Assembly (NCBI GenBank): GCA_023205875.1
Contig: CP060754.1
Span: forward strand, 1,178,001 to 1,242,000
Direction of reading: 5' to 3'
Length of the DNA: 64,000 nt
DNA from: Chloropicon primus
Lineage: Eukaryota; Chlorophyta; Chloropicophyceae; Chloropicales; Chloropicaceae
Shown piece by piece: positions 21,163-64,000 of the stretch. Both the position numbers and the translations under genes were made by a program. A model generated the notes under the pieces. The model did not search any database. It had not been told where the DNA came from and saw nothing but the letters and a program-made list of their open reading frames with translations. Positions within the stretch are counted from its first letter, which is position 1, and each line of letters opens with the position of its first letter.

Positions 21163-21474
21163 CCCTCTCTCTCTCTTCCTCTGATCACAAAACAACACCA
21201 CGGCGCCTCGCCGCCAGCCTCGGCCAACAAGGCAGAACCTCGCCTCGCCTCGTGATCAATCCACTCGCCTCGACCTCGCCTCCTCCCCCTCCCCCTTCTC
21301 TCTCTCTCTCTCCCTCTCTCTCTCTCTCTCTTCCTGCTCTCCCCGCCGCTCCTCTGCTCTCTCTCTCTCTCTCCAATTCTTGGACAAACTCCTGGGGGAC
21401 AGGATAGCGGAGGGGACGACACGGAGAGGGCGATTGGACCAGCACAGGGGTCTCAGACGTGAGTGGGAAGGACA

Positions 21475-21515
21475 TCAGTCGATAGTACGTCTCGGCATCT
21501 TTCTGGTGGTACCCG
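21475..21515 (-). promoter_or_regulatory. Divergent-promoter element, copy 4 (EFTUD2/ERICH2-like)
   Basis: On the minus strand it reads CAGAAAGATGCCGAGACG, then TACTATCGACTGATGTCC, preceded by GGTACCAC. It keeps the GAAAG-N5-GAGACG core but not the palindromic TTTCGAAAG. It lies within the first unit of the 179-bp duplication. Confidence 0.55.
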
Positions 21516-21654
21516 CATCGCTCTGTTTTGTGTCGAGGACGAGGCACTGGACGACATCTTGGACAAACTCCTGGGGGACAGGATAGCAGGAGGGGACGAC
21601 ACGGAGAGGGCGATTGGACCAAGACAGGGGTCTCAGACGTGAGTGAGAAGGTCA

Positions 21655-21695
21655 TCAGTCGATAGTACGTCTCGGCATCTTTCTGTTGGGTACTC
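21655..21695 (-). promoter_or_regulatory. Divergent-promoter element, copy 5 (second unit of the duplication)
   Basis: Reads CAGAAAGATGCCGAGACG, then TACTATCGACTGATGACC on the minus strand, nearly identical to copy 4 because it lies in the second 179-bp unit. It is about 70 bp upstream of the ERICH2-like ATG. Confidence 0.55.
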
Positions 21696-21763
21696 ACATC
21701 GGTTTGGGGTCTTGAATAGTTGCGAGGCACTGGACGAGAAGAGCTTGGACTTTGGCAAGCAAG

Positions 21764-56711: not shown

Positions 56712-56755
56712 TATCCGGGATCCTCTGCGTCGAAAGTTTCTGACGGAGCTTTTTC
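56712..56755 (+). promoter_or_regulatory. Divergent-promoter element, copy 12 (F-box/ALDH)
   Basis: Reads GGATCCTCTGCGTCGAAAG, TTTC, TGACGGAGCTTTTTC. It keeps TCGAAAG, the spacing and the CTTTTTC end, but GAGACG is changed to TGACGG. It is about 80 bp upstream of the ALDH ATG. A GTGTGT run followed by nine G lies at 56663-56690. Confidence 0.5.
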
Positions 56756-56831
56756 ATCCGGCGAAGGACAAAAGCAAGCGTCGAGGAGAGAGAAGAGAGA
56801 AGAGAGAGAGAGAGTTTTGAGATTTTTCGGT

Positions 56832-58637
56832 ATGGCGACGGCAGAGTTCTCCATGGTGGACAGCTTGCTGACTTCGCTCGGGATACGGACGTTTCGTGCG
56901 ACTGCGGCCGCGGCGAAGGTGCTGAGAGGTCTCGGCGGCGCGAGGACGGCGCGCAAGTTCCAGAAGGGAAGGCCCAAGGAGGCGAAACCCTCCGCGGAGT
57001 TGGAGGATGTGGAAACCCTGCTGGAGGGGTTGGACGGTCGCAAGGTGGCGTGGGCCCAGACCGACGCGATTAAGAAGGCGGAATACCTGGAGGAGTGCCT
57101 GAAGAGGATGGTGGGCAAGACGGACGAGTGCGCGAAGATAACGTGCGAGGTGAAGGGCGCGTACGAGTCTGGCCAGGGGGAGGAGCTCGCGGCGTGGTCG
57201 AGCTGCTGCTGGTTTGTGAGCGAGACGGTCAAGTCCCTGCGCCACGACTTCAAGCCCCCGCTGGGCCCCGTGAGGACGGTGAAGGGCGAGGAGACCTTCG
57301 AGGTGGTGGAGACCTTCCCGAGGGGCTTGCTCCTGAGTTTGGTGTTCCTGGGCATGAAGGGCGAGGTGTGGGTGAAGCCCGGGAAGAGGGTGAGACAGGG
57401 CGCCCCGAGGGTCAACGAGAAGGGGTCGGTGTGGCTGGTCCTCGGGGCGGGAAACCAGGTCCCTGCCGTGGTGGGCGACATCGTGCACTGCATGTTCATG
57501 TGCAACTCCACCGTGATACTGAAGATGAACCCCATCAACGATTTTCTGGGGCCCTTGCTGGAGGACTGCTTCGACCCGCTCATCCGCAGGGGTTACCTGA
57601 AGATCGTTTACGGGGGGGCCGAGGTCGGGAAGATGCTCGTGAACCACCGCCTCACCGAGGAGATCCACATGACTGGCAGCGACAAGACTTTTGACGCCAT
57701 CACGTGGAGGGGACAGAAGCCAAAGCCTGGCAGCAAGAAGCAGGATCCCCCGTTCAAGAAGCCCGTGCACGCCGAGCTTGGTTGCGTCACTCCCTTCATC
57801 ATACTTCCCGGCAACTGGTCGAGCGAGGACCTGGATTTCCAGGCGAAGCAGTGCGTGTCCGGGAAGCTCCACAACGCCGGGCACAACTGCGTGGCGCTCG
57901 AGGTGCTCGTGGTCCCCGAGAACTGGCACCTGAGGGAGAAGTTCATGGCGAGGGTGGAGCACCACCTCGAGAGGAGCCAGAAGAGAATCGCGTGGTACCC
58001 CCACAGCAAGGCCAACTACGACAGGTTCGTCTCGCAGTTCCCTCACGCCAAGAAGTTCGGATCGTTCGACGAGAGCACCGGCCAGTGCCCTTGGGTCTTG
58101 GCCTCCGGACTCACGCCGGAGACGGCGAGCAGCAGCCAAGAGAACTGGTGCGGCGTGCTGCAGGAGGTGAGGATCAAGAGCAAGAACCTCAATGACTACG
58201 TTGAGCAAGTTGCGGACTTTTGCAACAACAAGCTTTGGGGGGACCTCTCGTGCGCCGTGTTCGTGGACCCCAAGACGCAGAAGCACTCGAAGCGGGAGCT
58301 GGACCACCTGCTCGAGAAGCTGAGGTACGGAAGCATTTCCGTGAACTGCCCAACGACGCTCGTTTTCGCTGTCCCTACCTTGACTTGGGGCGCGCACCCT
58401 GGGAACACCGTCCAGGACATCCGCTCCGGAAACGCGTGCGTGCACAACACGAACTGTATCCAAGACCACCAGAAGTCCGTGCTTTATGCCCCCTGGAAGC
58501 CGCCGATCTACCCCGTCTGGAACTACGACAACGTCAACCTGGAGAATTCTGCCAAGGGGATGGTGAACTTCTTCGCCTTCCCAACCCTTCCCAACTTTGC
58601 GGCTCTGGCACTGCAAGCCCTTTTTGGCACGCCTTGA
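56832..58637 (+). CDS. Divergent aldehyde dehydrogenase family protein
   Basis: Intronless, 601 residues; ATG at 56832 after a GA-rich leader. It has the ALDH fold order: GLLLSLVFLGMKGEVWVKPG (replacing the usual proline-rich entry), LVLGAGNQVPAVVGDIVHCM, VILKMNPINDFLGPLLEDCF (NAD site, K-P-type Lys present), IHMTGSDKTFDAI (in place of FTGS), and VHAELGCVTPFIILPGNWSS (ELGC instead of ELGG). GKLHNAGHNCVALEVLVVPE holds the catalytic Cys in the G-x-x-C context. It is about 100 residues longer than standard ALDH, with a helical N-terminal extension from 1 to ~110. The substrate cannot be told; I recall long bacterial ALDH-like proteins of this type. No targeting peptide is certain. Tandem to MetH. 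Confidence 0.85.
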   Translation: MATAEFSMVDSLLTSLGIRTFRATAAAAKVLRGLGGARTARKFQKGRPKEAKPSAELEDVETLLEGLDGRKVAWAQTDAIKKAEYLEECLKRMVGKTDECAKITCEVKGAYESGQGEELAAWSSCCWFVSETVKSLRHDFKPPLGPVRTVKGEETFEVVETFPRGLLLSLVFLGMKGEVWVKPGKRVRQGAPRVNEKGSVWLVLGAGNQVPAVVGDIVHCMFMCNSTVILKMNPINDFLGPLLEDCFDPLIRRGYLKIVYGGAEVGKMLVNHRLTEEIHMTGSDKTFDAITWRGQKPKPGSKKQDPPFKKPVHAELGCVTPFIILPGNWSSEDLDFQAKQCVSGKLHNAGHNCVALEVLVVPENWHLREKFMARVEHHLERSQKRIAWYPHSKANYDRFVSQFPHAKKFGSFDESTGQCPWVLASGLTPETASSSQENWCGVLQEVRIKSKNLNDYVEQVADFCNNKLWGDLSCAVFVDPKTQKHSKRELDHLLEKLRYGSISVNCPTTLVFAVPTLTWGAHPGNTVQDIRSGNACVHNTNCIQDHQKSVLYAPWKPPIYPVWNYDNVNLENSAKGMVNFFAFPTLPNFAALALQALFGTP

Positions 58638-59243
58638 CGCTAGAGAGAGAGAGTGAGGCTCTGAGAAAGAAAACGCTAATTTATTATCAAGCACGCGCGG
58701 GAGAAGAAGAGATCCCGCATCCAAGCCATTCCAAGAGTCGTGTAATAAATGACGAAAAAAAAAAGAGGAAAGCAAACACACAACCCAAAGCATCACCGCC
58801 CGTCCAGTCCACCTTGGCCAGGGACGGTTACCAAAGTTGTAGTTGTCCTCCTGCACTCCGTCCGGCCCCACCTTCCAACTTTTCCCCAACCTTCCCATGG
58901 AAGACGTCACTGCCGTCACCTCGGACTCTCGCCCATTCCTCTGTAGAAAACGCCTCTTGCACGCGCCACCTTCTGCGCCATCCGATCTTTGCGATCGAAG
59001 GGGAGAGAGGAGCGGAAGGGGACGACGATCACTTTGCGGGGCGATCGATCGCGATCGATCGGAGCGGAGGACCAAGGGGTGAAGCGAGGGGGGAAGAGGC
59101 ACGTGCGGGACGTCCTTTACTTTAATTTCGGTGTTGGGTTTTGTCCATTTCGAGAAACGCCCGTGTCTTGTCGTGTCGTGTCGTCTTTGCCTTTGCTTGT
59201 GCAGGACTGGATTTGATTCCTTTTCGTGTGAAGAGGATTGAGG
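58638..59243. other. Intergenic gap between the ALDH and MetH genes
   Basis: 606 bp with no supported gene. It contains AGAGAG right after the ALDH stop, a poly-A run at 58755-58764, and a GCGATCGATC direct/inverted repeat at 59040-59060. No divergent-promoter element is seen, consistent with a tandem gene arrangement. Confidence 0.55.
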
Positions 59244-62200
59244 ATGAGTTCGAGGGGAGGGGAAGGGAGTGGCTTGGTGGAGAACCTTGACGCCAGGCAG
59301 TGGTTGGAGTATGCGATGCGTTACGCGAGGACGAACCCGGCGGTTGCTATCCTTGCTATCGCTTTCGCGTTGCCAGCAGCCTCTGCAGGAGTGTCCTTCG
59401 CCGTGTTTGCCTTCTTCCTCGTAGCGCCGGTGGCGATACCAGCGGCCGTAGTGTTCGCCTTGTACTACTTGTACACGAAGAGCAGCGCCAAAGTTACCGT
59501 CAAGAGGACAAAGCCCAAGACGACGACGGCGAGAAAGCCGAGGAAGCAGAACGTGGAAGGAATCCCTACTGAGCTGCTTCCTCCAGAGAACCTGGCGCCT
59601 GTTCCGGTGTACAAGCCGTTCAGCTCGGCCGTTGTTCCGACGGCCAACTATGGTGTGATTCAGAAGCTGTTCACGGAACGCATTTTGGTGATTGATGGCG
59701 CCATGGGAACTTCCATTCAGAAGTACAAGATTGATGAGCCTGACTTTAGAGGGGAGCGGTACGCGAACCACACCCACCCGCTGAAGGGCAACAACGACAT
59801 CCTTGTGATTACCCGCCCCGACATCATTAGCGAGATCCACAGCAAGTTCCTTGAGGTCGGTGCCGACTTTATCGAGACGAACACGTTCAGCGGAACCTCC
59901 ATCGCTCAGGCTGACTACGAGCTGCAAGCGGAGGAGGAGGTGCGCCTGATCAACAAGAAAGCCGCTGAGATTGCCAAGGAGTGCTGCGTCAAGTTTACCG
60001 CAAAGGATCCTTCCAAGCCTCGCTTTGTTTGTGGTGCCATTGGGCCCACGAACAGGACACTGAGCGTCTCTCCCTCTGTGGAGAACCCGGCATTCCGCAA
60101 CGTGACTTTTGATGAGGTTGTTGCGGCCTACACCGTCCAGATTGATTCTCTGGTCGCGGGCGGAGTGGACGTTCTTCTCGTCGAGACGATCTTTGACACG
60201 CTGAACGCAAAGGCCGCTTTGTACGCCATCGAGCAGTACTTTGCGGAGAAGGGAATTCGTCTTCCCGTTTTCATCAGTGGCACCATTGTGGACAACAGTG
60301 GGCGCACGCTTAGCGGGCAGACCAACGAGGCTTTCTGGAACAGTGTCCAGCATGCCAAGCCCCTCGCCATAGGTTTGAACTGCGCTCTTGGTGCCAGCGA
60401 CATGATTGGTTACATCGAGAACCTCAGCCAGTGCTGCGACTGCTTTGTGTTTGCCTACCCAAACGCCGGTCTGCCAAACTGCATGGGCGGTTACGACCAG
60501 ACCGGAAAGGAGATGAGGGAGGAGGTCCAGCCCTTCGTGGAGCGGGGGCTCGTGAACATGCTTGGAGGGTGCTGCGGCACTTGGTACGATCACATCGAGG
60601 AGATTGCCGACCTCGTCAAGGGGTACGAGCCAAGGAAGATCCCTCGGGTTGAGGAGAAGATGCGTTTGAGCGGCCTTGAGCCTCTGAACTACACCCCTGA
60701 CGAGAAGAACATGAGGGGCACCTTCTTGAACGTGGGCGAGCGGTGTAATGTCGCAGGCTCCATGATGTACAAGAAGGCCATTGTTGACGGCAACTACGAG
60801 AAGGCTCTTTCTATTGCCCTGAAGCAGGTGCAGCAGGGCGCTGATGTTCTTGACATCAACATGGATGATGGCCTGATCGACGGTGTTTCTGCGATGACCA
60901 AGTTCGTGAACTTGCTCATTTCTGAGCCTGACGTGAGCAAGGTTCCTTTCATGATCGACTCCTCGAAGTTCCACGTGGTTGAGGCTGGCCTGAAGTGCGC
61001 CCAGGGCAAGTGTATTGTGAACTCCATTTCCTTGAAGGAGGGCGAGGAGGCTTTCAAGCACCACGCCAGAATCTGCAAGTACCATGGCGCATCTGTTGTT
61101 GTCATGGCCTTTGACGAGGAGGGTCAGGCTGCGACCTTTGAGGACAAGGTCCGCATCTGCCAGAGGGCTTATCGCATCCTCGTGGAGGAGGTCGGGTTTG
61201 CAGGGCACGACATTATCTTTGATCCAAACATCTTGACTGTTGGCACAGGCCTCGCAGAGCACAACAACTATGCCGTGGACTTCATTCGCGCCACTCGCGA
61301 GATCAAGAGGGTTTGCCCCGGCTGCAAGATCAGCGGAGGCGTGTCCAACATTGCCTTCTCCTTCAGAGGCAACGAGGCTGTGAGAAGGGCCTTCCACAGC
61401 GCTTTCTTGTACCACGCTTGCAACGCGGGCATGGACATGGGCATTGTGAACGCTGCCCAGGTGAAGGCTGATGCCTATGACAAGGTCGACAAGGAGCTCT
61501 TGGGTTACGTTGAGGACGTGTTGCTGAACCGCTGCGACAACGCCACGGAGAGGATGCTGGAGTATGCGGCCACGCTTGAGCCCAAGTGCAAGCCCACTGC
61601 AGTTGTGAAGAAGGGTTCCGGTGTTCCAGCCTTCACCCCATCCCCAAAGGTGAACGAGAGGACGCACGACACTTTGGCTCCTCCAGAGAACCTGGCGCCT
61701 GTTCCGGTATACAAGCCGTTCAGCTCGGCCGTTGTTCCGACGGCCAACTATGGTGTGATTCAGAAGCTGTTCACGGAACGCATTTTGGTGATTGATGGCG
61801 CCATGGGAACTTCCATTCAGAAGTACAAGATTGATGAGCCTGACTTTAGAGGGGAGCGGTACGCGAACCACACCCACCCGCTGAAGGGCAACAACGACAT
61901 CCTTGTGATTACCCGCCCCGACATCATTAGCGAGATCCACAGCAAGTTCCTTGAGGTCGGTGCCGACTTTATCGAGACGAACACGTTCAGCGGAACCTCC
62001 ATCGCTCAGGCTGACTACGAGCTGCAAGCGGAGGAGGAGGTGCGCCTGATCAACAAGAAAGCCGCTGAGATTGCCAAGGAGTGCTGCGTCAAGTTTACCG
62101 CAAAGGATCCTTCCAAGCCTCGCTTTGTTTGTGGTGCCATTGGGCCCACGAACAGGACACTGAGCGTCTCTCCCTCTGTGGAGAACCCGGCATTCCGCAA

Positions 62201-64000
62201 CGTGACTTTTGATGAGGTTGTTGCGGCCTACACCGTCCAGATTGATTCTCTGGTCGCGGGCGGAGTGGACGTTCTTCTCGTCGAGACGATCTTTGACACG
62301 CTGAACGCAAAGGCCGCTTTGTACGCCATCGAGCAGTACTTTGCGGAGAAGGGAATTCGTCTTCCCGTTTTCATCAGTGGCACCATTGTGGACAACAGTG
62401 GGCGCACGCTTAGCGGGCAGACCAACGAGGCTTTCTGGAACAGTGTCCAGCATGCCAAGCCCCTCGCCATAGGTTTGAACTGCGCTCTTGGTGCCAGCGA
62501 CATGATTGGTTACATCGAGAACCTCAGCCAGTGCTGCGACTGCTTTGTGTTTGCCTACCCAAACGCCGGTCTGCCAAACTGCATGGGCGGTTACGACCAG
62601 ACCGGAAAGGAGATGAGGGAGGAGGTCCAGCCCTTCGTGGAGCGGGGGCTCGTGAACATGCTTGGAGGGTGCTGCGGCACTTGGTACGATCACATCGAGG
62701 AGATTGCCGACCTCGTCAAGGGGTACGAGCCAAGGAAGATCCCTCAGGTTGAGGAGAAGATGCGTTTGAGCGGCCTTGAGCCTCTGAACTACACCCCCGA
62801 CGAGAAGAACATGAGGGGCACCTTCTTGAACGTGGGCGAGCGGTGTAATGTCGCAGGCTCCATGATGTACAAGAAGGCCATTGTTGACGGCAACTACGAG
62901 AAGGCTCTTTCTATTGCCCTGAAGCAGGTGCAGCAGGGCGCTGATGTTCTTGACATCAACATGGATGATGGCCTGATCGACGGTGTTTCTGCGATGACCA
63001 AGTTCGTGAACTTGCTCATTTCTGAGCCTGACGTGAGCAAGGTTCCTTTCATGATCGACTCCTCGAAGTTCCACGTGGTTGAGGCTGGCCTGAAGTGCGC
63101 CCAGGGCAAGTGTATTGTGAACTCCATTTCCTTGAAGGAGGGCGAGGAGGCTTTCAAGCACCACGCCAGAATCTGCAAGTACCATGGCGCATCTGTTGTT
63201 GTCATGGCCTTTGACGAGGAGGGTCAGGCTGCGACCTTTGAGGACAAGGTCCGCATCTGCCAGAGGGCTTATCGCATCCTCGTGGAGGAGGTCGGGTTTG
63301 CAGGGCACGACATTATCTTTGATCCAAACATCTTGACTGTTGGCACAGGCCTCGCAGAGCACAACAACTATGCCGTGGACTTCATTCGCGCCACTCGCGA
63401 GATCAAGAGGGTTTGCCCCGGCTGCAAGATCAGCGGAGGCGTGTCCAACATTGCCTTCTCCTTCAGAGGCAACGAGGCTGTGAGAAGGGCCTTCCACAGC
63501 GCTTTCTTGTACCACGCTTGCAACGCGGGCATGGACATGGGCATTGTGAACGCTGCCCAGGTGAAGGCTGATGCCTATGACAAGGTCGACAAGGAGCTCT
63601 TGGGTTACGTTGAGGACGTGTTGCTGAACCGCTGCGACAACGCCACGGAGAGGATGCTGGAGTATGCGGCCACGCTTGAGCCCAAGTGCAAGCCCACTGC
63701 AGTTGTGAAGAAGGGTTCCGGTGTTCCAGCCTTCACCCCATCCCCAAAGGTGAACGAGAGGACGCACGACACTTTGGCTCCTCCAGAGAACCTGGCGCCT
63801 GTTCCGGTATACAAGCCGTTCAGCTCGGCCGTTGTTCCGACGGCCAACTATGGTGTGATTCAGAAGCTGTTCACGGAACGCATTTTGGTGATTGATGGCG
63901 CCATGGGAACTTCCATTCAGAAGTACAAGATTGATGAGCCTGACTTTAGAGGGGAGCGGTACGCGAACCACACCCACCCGCTGAAGGGCAACAACGACAT
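59244..64000 (+). CDS. metH: Cobalamin-dependent methionine synthase with tandem homocysteine/folate modules (continues past window)
   Basis: Open from the ATG at 59244 to the window end, 1,585 codons with no stop. MetH transfers methyl from 5-methyl-THF via B12 to homocysteine. Residues ~27-70 are strongly hydrophobic (VAILAIAFALPAASAG, then FAVFAFFLVAPVAIPAAVVF) and are followed by a Lys/Thr-rich stretch, an unexpected membrane hairpin or anchor. Then comes a homocysteine S-methyltransferase module: ILVIDGAMGTSIQ, IGLNCALGASDMI (first Zn Cys) and NMLGGCCGTWYDHI (Zn Cys pair). A pterin-binding module follows: FLNVGERCNVAGSMMY, DVLDINMDDGLIDGV, PFMIDSSKFHVVEAGLK, ISGGVSNIAFSFRG. Instead of going on to the B12 cap, the chain returns to the first module. 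Unit 2 (61679-63778) repeats 700 residues and unit 3 begins at 63779. The B12 and activation domains must lie beyond the window if present. Confidence 0.92.
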   Translation, partial: MSSRGGEGSGLVENLDARQWLEYAMRYARTNPAVAILAIAFALPAASAGVSFAVFAFFLVAPVAIPAAVVFALYYLYTKSSAKVTVKRTKPKTTTARKPRKQNVEGIPTELLPPENLAPVPVYKPFSSAVVPTANYGVIQKLFTERILVIDGAMGTSIQKYKIDEPDFRGERYANHTHPLKGNNDILVITRPDIISEIHSKFLEVGADFIETNTFSGTSIAQADYELQAEEEVRLINKKAAEIAKECCVKFTAKDPSKPRFVCGAIGPTNRTLSVSPSVENPAFRNVTFDEVVAAYTVQIDSLVAGGVDVLLVETIFDTLNAKAALYAIEQYFAEKGIRLPVFISGTIVDNSGRTLSGQTNEAFWNSVQHAKPLAIGLNCALGASDMIGYIENLSQCCDCFVFAYPNAGLPNCMGGYDQTGKEMREEVQPFVERGLVNMLGGCCGTWYDHIEEIADLVKGYEPRKIPRVEEKMRLSGLEPLNYTPDEKNMRGTFLNVGERCNVAGSMMYKKAIVDGNYEKALSIALKQVQQGADVLDINMDDGLIDGVSAMTKFVNLLISEPDVSKVPFMIDSSKFHVVEAGLKCAQGKCIVNSISLKEGEEAFKHHARICKYHGASVVVMAFDEEGQAATFEDKVRICQRAYRILVEEVGFAGHDIIFDPNILTVGTGLAEHNNYAVDFIRATREIKRVCPGCKISGGVSNIAFSFRGNEAVRRAFHSAFLYHACNAGMDMGIVNAAQVKADAYDKVDKELLGYVEDVLLNRCDNATERMLEYAATLEPKCKPTAVVKKGSGVPAFTPSPKVNERTHDTLAPPENLAPVPVYKPFSSAVVPTANYGVIQKLFTERILVIDGAMGTSIQKYKIDEPDFRGERYANHTHPLKGNNDILVITRPDIISEIHSKFLEVGADFIETNTFSGTSIAQADYELQAEEEVRLINKKAAEIAKECCVKFTAKDPSKPRFVCGAIGPTNRTLSVSPSVENPAFRNVTFDEVVAAYTVQIDSLVAGGVDVLLVETIFDTLNAKAALYAIEQYFAEKGIRLPVFISGTIVDNSGRTLSGQTNEAFWNSVQHAKPLAIGLNCALGASDMIGYIENLSQCCDCFVFAYPNAGLPNCMGGYDQTGKEMREEVQPFVERGLVNMLGGCCGTWYDHIEEIADLVKGYEPRKIPQVEEKMRLSGLEPLNYTPDEKNMRGTFLNVGERCNVAGSMMYKKAIVDGNYEKALSIALKQVQQGADVLDINMDDGLIDGVSAMTKFVNLLISEPDVSKVPFMIDSSKFHVVEAGLKCAQGKCIVNSISLKEGEEAFKHHARICKYHGASVVVMAFDEEGQAATFEDKVRICQRAYRILVEEVGFAGHDIIFDPNILTVGTGLAEHNNYAVDFIRATREIKRVCPGCKISGGVSNIAFSFRGNEAVRRAFHSAFLYHACNAGMDMGIVNAAQVKADAYDKVDKELLGYVEDVLLNRCDNATERMLEYAATLEPKCKPTAVVKKGSGVPAFTPSPKVNERTHDTLAPPENLAPVPVYKPFSSAVVPTANYGVIQKLFTERILVIDGAMGTSIQKYKIDEPDFRGERYANHTHPLKGNND
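59579..61678 (+). repeat. MetH 2,100-bp tandem unit 1
   Basis: The first complete unit, 700 codons. It differs from unit 2 at three sites by direct reading: 59609 (G versus A, silent), 60646 (G versus A, Arg to Gln) and 60698 (T versus C, silent). It covers the whole homocysteine and pterin modules plus the linker ending VNERTHDTL. Confidence 0.95.
61679..63778 (+). repeat. MetH 2,100-bp tandem unit 2
   Basis: The second complete unit, offset from unit 1 by exactly 2,100 bp and in the same reading frame, joined at APPENLAPVPVYKPF. All Zn-ligand and folate-site motifs are intact in this copy too. Confidence 0.95.
63779..64000 (+). repeat. MetH tandem unit 3, partial (cut by window end)
   Basis: The 222 bases present are identical to the start of unit 2, including the A at 63809 that distinguishes unit 2 from unit 1. 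Total copy number is unknown. Confidence 0.9.

Follow-up and report, generated by a model that had tools for sequence, protein, structure and literature searches.

Large domain motions have made MetH a textbook example among enzymes, in which a single B12 domain moves between the homocysteine and the folate domains. The supply of B12 limits much of the phytoplankton. In Phaeodactylum tricornutum, Bromke and Hesse (2015) described an in-frame 'intron' of METH that encodes another MetH-type and pterin domain; they suggested a domain doubling and called for its experimental verification (PMC4523565). The available part of that report says nothing on other algae, on uniform copies or on linker conservation, and repeated heads are unmentioned in the available parts of PMC11439496, PMC3901274 and PMC6557843. 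Among the papers listed in literature searches on the subject, none describes multi-headed MetH in its title or in the abstract shown. The layout has thus gone almost unnoticed in print. Here, we describe a three-headed MetH of Chloropicon primus, where a head denotes one homocysteine and one folate module, and compare it with related proteins.

A repeated MetH head in C. primus

The window, i.e., the whole stretch of 64,000 nucleotides that was analyzed, contains three direct repeats with a period of exactly 2,100 bp (Table 1), the only direct repeats of at least 150 bp reported in this 64-kb window. A chance origin of a 2.1-kb repeat is out of the question. The window ends within unit 3, and 20 kb of chromosome from position 59001 on, 15 kb of it beyond the window, were examined. 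Unit 3 was found to be the final one, since it diverges from the repeat after KKGSGV and runs into the B12 module; the assembly therefore contains exactly three heads. The open frame (59238–67646 in window numbering) starts at a TTG, the first ATG being at 59244, from where the gene comprises 2,800 codons with a terminal stop only.

Table 1. Features of the MetH locus of C. primus (positions in the window; for variable sites, the unit 1 position and base are given before those of unit 2).
Feature	Position	Strand	Remarks
MetH coding sequence, in-window part	59244..64000	+	continues to 67646 = contig position 1,245,646
N-terminal hydrophobic stretch (residues ~32–77), then Lys/Arg-rich stretch	59337..59474	+	possible membrane hairpin
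Repeat unit 1, 700 codons	59579..61678	+	
Head 1 homocysteine S-methyltransferase domain PF02574 (residues 148–457)	59685..60614	+	Pfam
Head 1 pterin (folate)-binding domain PF00809 (residues 498–736)	60735..61451	+	Pfam
Inter-head linker 1-2, part absent from the head 3-to-B12 linker	61626..61678	+	
Repeat unit 2	61679..63778	+	three bases differing from unit 1
Head 2 homocysteine domain	61785..62714	+	placed by 2,100-bp offset
Head 2 folate domain	62835..63551	+	placed by 2,100-bp offset
Inter-head linker 2-3	63726..63778	+	identical to linker 1-2
Repeat unit 3 start	63779..64000	+	beyond the window: head 3, PF02607, PF02310, PF02965
Variable site 1	59609/61709		G/A, silent
Variable site 2	60646/62746		G/A, Arg CGG to Gln CAG
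Variable site 3	60698/62798		T/C, silent

Over their 2,100 bp, units 1 and 2 are distinguished by exactly three bases, and four-fold sites differ at 2/307, 1/308 and 1/307 positions between units. At the three variable sites, unit 3 carries A, G and T, which matches unit 2 at the first site and unit 1 at the remaining two; this mosaic suggests an exchange between units. Alternatively, these sites could have been shifted by short-read polishing of near-identical copies, a procedure that can make the copies of a repeat look more alike than they truly are. The original prediction, made from the letters of the window, had proposed an in-frame 2,100-bp repetition of the MetH head whose first two units differ at three bases, one of them an Arg/Gln change, with several heads possibly feeding one B12 domain and with copies not simply pasted; the repeat starts, the base differences, the single B12 module and the mosaic unit 3 are all in agreement with it, while its count of at least three heads is narrowed to three in the assembly.

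Pfam detected three PF02574, three PF00809, one PF02607, one PF02310 and one PF02965 in the protein. All four MetH modules are present, namely homocysteine (PF02574), folate (PF00809), B12 (PF02607 and PF02310) and reactivation (PF02965), and with three homocysteine and three folate modules the protein departs from the canonical layout with one of each; at least two heads with one B12 and one activation module place it in a multi-headed class. Unit 3 with the tail scored 1,873.8 bits against NF007024 (cut-off 1,497) and 1,621.4 bits against TIGR02082 (cut-off 1,010.85), and aligned with a solved MetH over residues 27–1287 of 1,288, the MetH structures listed being 9ssp, 8g3h and 4ccz. The zinc-binding cysteine triad of the homocysteine domain, located by the E. 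coli numbering, is present in all three heads. The linkers between heads span ~111 residues, of which the first half resembles the head 3-to-B12 passage and the second half is rich in proline and lysine. The folate-linker-homocysteine segment was predicted from the single sequence with a mean pLDDT of 40, and this model was too poor to be informative. The Pfam family SmaI (PF17411) also lay narrowly above its cut-off, with no single stretch that passes; this match is probably spurious, being a sum of weak matches over three units.

The genome searched comprises 17,584,162 bases in 20 contigs, and the MetH contig 1,855,637 bases. Within these 17.58 Mb, the full MetH tail occurs at one place only, the inter-head linker at exactly two, and the MetH gene is the sole match of PF02310, a profile that detects 12 of 14 prokaryote control genomes. 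MetE was sought with PF01717 and PF08267, detected in 10/14 and 9/14 prokaryote controls, and neither was found in the genome, although a MetE gene split by introns could escape such a search. Chloropicon reportedly has less than one intron per gene on average, according to the available part of PMC12301720. With a sole B12-binding match and no MetE found, the whole methionine supply would hang on the ratio of heads to B12.

Other features of the locus were noted. An aldehyde dehydrogenase gene lies upstream of the MetH gene. An antisense frame (56754–63998, minus strand, 2,414 codons) is open across the whole array and beyond, and is probably a by-product of codon use; it was not treated as a gene. 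A 180-bp tandem repeat is found at 21378–21701 (1.8 copies, 93% matches). A search of plasmid DNA returned 34 records, with one place each, all at 60–80% identity.

Occurrence of multi-headed MetH proteins

A search with the full protein of 2,800 residues, which only admits candidates of at least ~1,540 residues, gave 331 matches among 7,998 candidates scored; due to this length limit, the ordinary one-headed MetH (~1,250–1,450 residues) is absent from it. The best 120 of the 331 matches and the C. primus MetH were cut into modules with BLAST probes. Among these 121 proteins, 89 contained two heads with a complete tail, 15 (C. primus included) contained three, and two, from Bryopsis and Haematococcus, contained four, the other 15 being incomplete variants of the same pattern. 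No relative more than 92% identical to the C. primus MetH was present among the matches listed.

The multi-headed members include Chlamydomonas incerta, Volvox carteri, V. africanus, V. reticuliferus, Pleodorina and Astrephomene, as well as Dunaliella salina, Chlorella sorokiniana, C. vulgaris, Parachlorella, Trebouxia, Myrmecia, Ostreobium and a pedinophyte. They also include Chrysophaeum, the diatoms Nitzschia inconspicua and Epithemia, the dinoflagellates Polarella and Prorocentrum, and Mucochytrium. Further members are assigned by their JGI codes to Botryococcus, Chlorokybus and Mesostigma. A second search, starting from the Chrysophaeum protein (best 120 of 300 matches, 41 new), added Aureococcus and Hondaea. 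In a third search, limited to ~1,580 residues or less (best 120 of 8,000 matches, 118 new), 96 of the 118 new proteins had one complete head and a complete tail; this one-headed set includes Zygnematophyceae, chytrids, dictyostelids, animals and some Chlorellales. Two B12 caps or two activation domains were found in none of the 280 proteins (0/280). The fusion of two genes by annotators was rejected, since no B12 module stands between heads. The architecture is very probably real, and it is widespread.

The number of heads in a given record has to be read with care. Short-read assemblers collapse exact tandem repeats or cross them once, and the head counts of individual metagenome assemblies were therefore not trusted. 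Among the matches listed, at least 51 green relatives are complete and one-headed; for 11 of these 51, a multi-headed protein with a tail of at least 98% identity exists, so that they may represent collapsed repeats, while others, such as those from Zygnematophyceae and Auxenochlorella, look genuine. In C. reinhardtii, the gene model CHLRE_06g250902v5 (P0014) reads HCY-FOL-HCY-HCY-FOL-B12-ACT, the order expected if an erroneous gene model had dropped a folate domain and the B12 cap from a three-headed gene like that of C. incerta. PF16561, a glycogen-binding AMPK-type domain, is listed for several MetH proteins of streptophyte algae, namely P0065 (Mesostigma, by its JGI code), P0172 and P0175 (Closterium) and P0186 (JGI code Mesen1). 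The inter-head linker of P0065 is 193 residues long and repeats a stretch also found before head 1, and the PF16561 module may be part of the repeat unit in this protein.

A hydrophobic stretch of ~45 residues with central prolines precedes head 1 in C. primus and is kept in P0007 and in the one-headed P0121–P0130. No Pfam family was detected in the N-terminus of the C. primus MetH. Head 1 is preceded by 40 residues or more in 183 proteins, and 67 of these, mainly green-type, reach a Kyte-Doolittle value above 1.6 over a window of 19 residues. Green algal MetH may be membrane-anchored.

Integrity and possible role of the additional heads

Building on what is legible in the sequences (the architecture, its spread, the one-to-many ratio of B12 domain to heads, the uniformity within species, the conserved linker and the intact catalytic residues), we consider it probable, at roughly 60%, that the C. 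primus enzyme belongs to a widespread and old algal class, (Hcy-Fol)n-B12-Act with n = 2 to 4, whose heads are homogenized by conversion and share one B12 domain. The tandem array would be old in green algae, and its units would be kept near-identical by gene conversion and/or unequal crossing-over, processes that would also alter n. Each head would bind both homocysteine and methyl-folate, and the mobile B12 domain, present only once, would visit whichever head is loaded, which may allow a higher turnover per cobalamin when B12 is scarce; docking may also occur between neighboring molecules. A bolder version, which we advance only tentatively, is that of an ancient cofactor-sparing MetH. Two to four interchangeable heads would share one cobalamin domain, so that more methionine is produced per B12 where B12 limits growth; selection would maintain at least two heads and gene conversion would maintain their likeness, the enzyme having arisen or been inherited in the green and the stramenopile/dinoflagellate lines. 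It predicts multi-headed proteins mainly in B12-dependent species, yet Phaeodactylum has MetE together with a doubled METH, as given in the available part of PMC4523565.

Residues were scored by alignment columns over the 261 full heads of the best 120 of 331 matches and C. primus. The three zinc cysteines were kept in 260, 261 and 261 of the 261 heads, the sole loss being in head 2 of P0073. In the folate domain, 10 of the 13 columns examined were kept in at least 259 of 261 heads; the variable ones were an asparagine (219/261), the serine of MIDSS (176/261) and the glutamate of LKEGE (110/261). We also compared diverged heads within proteins, using 145 invariant columns defined from 96 single-head MetH proteins. 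In 37 head pairs of less than 96% identity, from 25 proteins, 1.8% of positions differed at the 145 invariant columns and 12.0% at the 436 other columns. This conservation favors a function of the additional heads without proving it, as conversion from the last head could keep unused heads intact.

The same caveat underlies the strongest alternative, in which the repeat is recombination-prone and confers no advantage; head number would drift, and the heads would stay intact through repeated overwriting by the essential copy. Conversion alone would indeed preserve the catalytic residues, n varies from 1 to 4 among relatives, and P0243, P0271, P0272 and P0279 run contrary to the trend, with 11–16 differences between their heads at the invariant columns. 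However, the loss of a unit by unequal crossing-over is easy and n is nevertheless kept at 2 or more across classes, and the heads of P0012, P0009 and P0010, which are 80–88% alike, differ at only 0–3 of the 145 invariant columns. Neutral drift of this kind is unlikely in our view.

Somewhat less probable still is that the additional heads do not serve the attached B12 domain. They could be released as free heads by cleavage, an internal start or splicing, act as stores of homocysteine or folate, or be methyltransferases that act in trans or draw on a different donor, e.g., S-methylmethionine. PF02574 does include methyltransferases independent of B12, and the frame contains a Met codon 42 residues ahead of unit 2, making internal starts possible. 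In P. tricornutum, the extra head lies inside an in-frame intron of 2,280 whose retention is supported by ESTs according to the available part of PMC4523565, so that alternative splicing is possible in this species. Against such roles, each repeat includes the folate domain, with its conserved residues kept, as well as the homocysteine domain, a joint repetition that makes most sense with a corrinoid acceptor, and the only PF02310 match of the genome is the one in this gene.

Age and homogenization of the array

Heads are generally more alike within a protein than between species. Named species with at least two full heads number 33, and in 32 of them the lowest identity between heads of the protein exceeded the highest identity to another named species, the exception being C. 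reinhardtii, which ties with C. incerta at 98.1%; Trebouxia C0005, Tetrabaena and Aureococcus, with fewer than two full heads by the cut-off, were left out of this comparison. When every other protein of the set was considered, named or not, the heads within a protein were the most alike in 129/153 proteins, and in a tree of heads they grouped by protein in 132/153. Sets of near-identical records account for 12 of the 21 exceptions; strain UWO241 falls between the heads of C. eustigma and C. incerta between those of C. reinhardtii, and in the group of P0271, P0272, P0279 and P0243, first and second heads stay separate. For C. primus, the minimum identity within the protein was 99.8%, as compared to a maximum of 75.2% to another named species. 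Its heads are up to 94.2% identical to those of the sister protein P0007, which is the closest multi-headed relative among the matches listed (two heads, 92% identical overall).

The two heads of P0007 are 100% alike and the linker between them is homologous to that of C. primus, which indicates that the tandem array is older than the divergence of these species and that its units, near-identical within each, were homogenized separately in each species. The linker is not restricted to this pair. A green linker pattern, P(K/R)xN ... LAP ... PVPxY, was found in 72 of 89 inter-head linkers, where green designates, here, for the one-headed relatives and for head divergence, proteins whose last head is at least 68% identical to C. 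primus head 3, as a proxy. It was matched by 4 of 4,450 shuffled linkers and by 0 of 69 head-to-B12 linkers; patterns were composed after viewing the linkers, so the shuffled linkers control for shuffling and not for the choice of pattern. Most of the 17 negative green linkers show the same linker by eye, and a narrower first pattern had matched 52/89. The C. primus linker is of the green type, Chlorokybus and Mesostigma linkers show a weaker likeness to it, stramenopiles share a different linker and dinoflagellates a third.

Among 16 green proteins with at least three heads, 13 have head 1 as the single most divergent one, often by a margin of less than 1%, as expected if exchange is rarer at the edge of an array. 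The C. primus MetH departs from this edge effect, its deviating head being head 2, and so do 4 of 5 non-green proteins. A tail tree was built from 59 of 60 chosen proteins, C. reinhardtii being left out for want of a full tail. Multi-headed proteins fell mainly in a green group and in a stramenopile/dinoflagellate group, with at least nine changes between single and multiple heads, seven of them forced by well-supported branches, as compared to an average of 17.8 in shuffles. Since some of the 'single' labels are suspect, origins could not be counted on this tree.

Taken together, the likeness of heads within species and the conservation of the linker across green algae argue for an old array whose uniformity is maintained by gene conversion or unequal crossing-over. 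The near identity of the units is thus, on sequence grounds, best described as concerted evolution rather than a sign of recent origin. The original prediction had read it as very recent duplication or gene conversion: conversion or unequal exchange stands, while a recent origin by simple duplication was rejected, as the linker is common to P0007 and other green algae.

A variant in which each species duplicated its head recently and independently, old copies being lost and no array being long-standing, is improbable. The near identity within species and the changes forced on the tail tree would fit it, and unequal crossing-over is itself a form of such duplication. Nevertheless, each new duplication would make a new junction, whereas the green linker is homologous between classes and was found in none of the 69 head-to-B12 passages; furthermore, a positional divergence of heads is retained in P0271, P0272, P0279 and P0243, and the one-headed labels behind the count of changes are partly suspect.

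The least probable reading is an assembly artefact, i.e., a real gene with one or two heads to which a misassembly of repeats or haplotypes added units. As described in the available part of PMC12301720, the C. primus RCC138 assembly was made from Nanopore reads with Canu and polished with Nanopore and Illumina reads, a type of assembly that can err in repeats, and the species is reported as mostly diploid. Among relatives, what appears to be one species has seven records of 1,439 residues with one head (P0151, P0153, P0155, P0156 and P0158–P0160) and nine of 2,144 residues with two (P0036, P0038–P0040, P0043 and P0048–P0051), their tails being identical at 98% or more; the two lengths are one unit apart, which reflects either collapsed repeats or copy-number polymorphism. 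One-headed and multi-headed Aureococcus records also have nearly the same tail. However, multi-headed proteins come from many named genomes, the junction linker of C. primus is absent from its head 3-to-B12 passage and has homologs in an independent relative and in green algae, and heads only 80–92% alike (P0012, P0009, P0010, P0015 and P0112) were not made by an assembler duplicating a sequence. The artefact, which had been offered as the alternative at the outset, was consequently rejected for the architecture, and could explain the number n only.

Comparison with known systems

One cobalamin domain facing several identical heads would change the one-to-one stoichiometry that is assumed for MetH, with a bearing on estimates of B12 demand, on the size of METH expected in proteomics and on algal gene models. 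The natural series from n = 1 to n = 4 offers a test of head number against turnover per cofactor, and the array is a protein-coding tandem repeat whose concerted evolution can be traced through much of algal diversity.

The supposition that no MetH of this kind is known did not hold, as two to four heads are common in algal MetH and a doubled head had already been noted in Phaeodactylum (available part of PMC4523565). As compared to the canonical MetH (TIGR02082/NF007024), unit 3 of C. primus with its tail equals an ordinary full-length enzyme, which lacks the two additional complete heads and the N-terminal hydrophobic stretch before them. The P. tricornutum METH, in the available part of PMC4523565, contains a second MetH-type and pterin-binding domain in one gene, as in C. 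primus, but has two heads instead of three and was reported as a curiosity of a single species. The same (Hcy-Fol)n-B12-Act layout as in C. primus, with n = 2 to 4, is found in public proteins labelled only as hypothetical protein or methionine synthase, such as those of Volvox carteri (2,783 residues), Chlamydomonas incerta (2,743 residues), Bryopsis sp. (3,361 residues), Haematococcus lacustris (3,657 residues) and Nitzschia inconspicua (2,113 residues).
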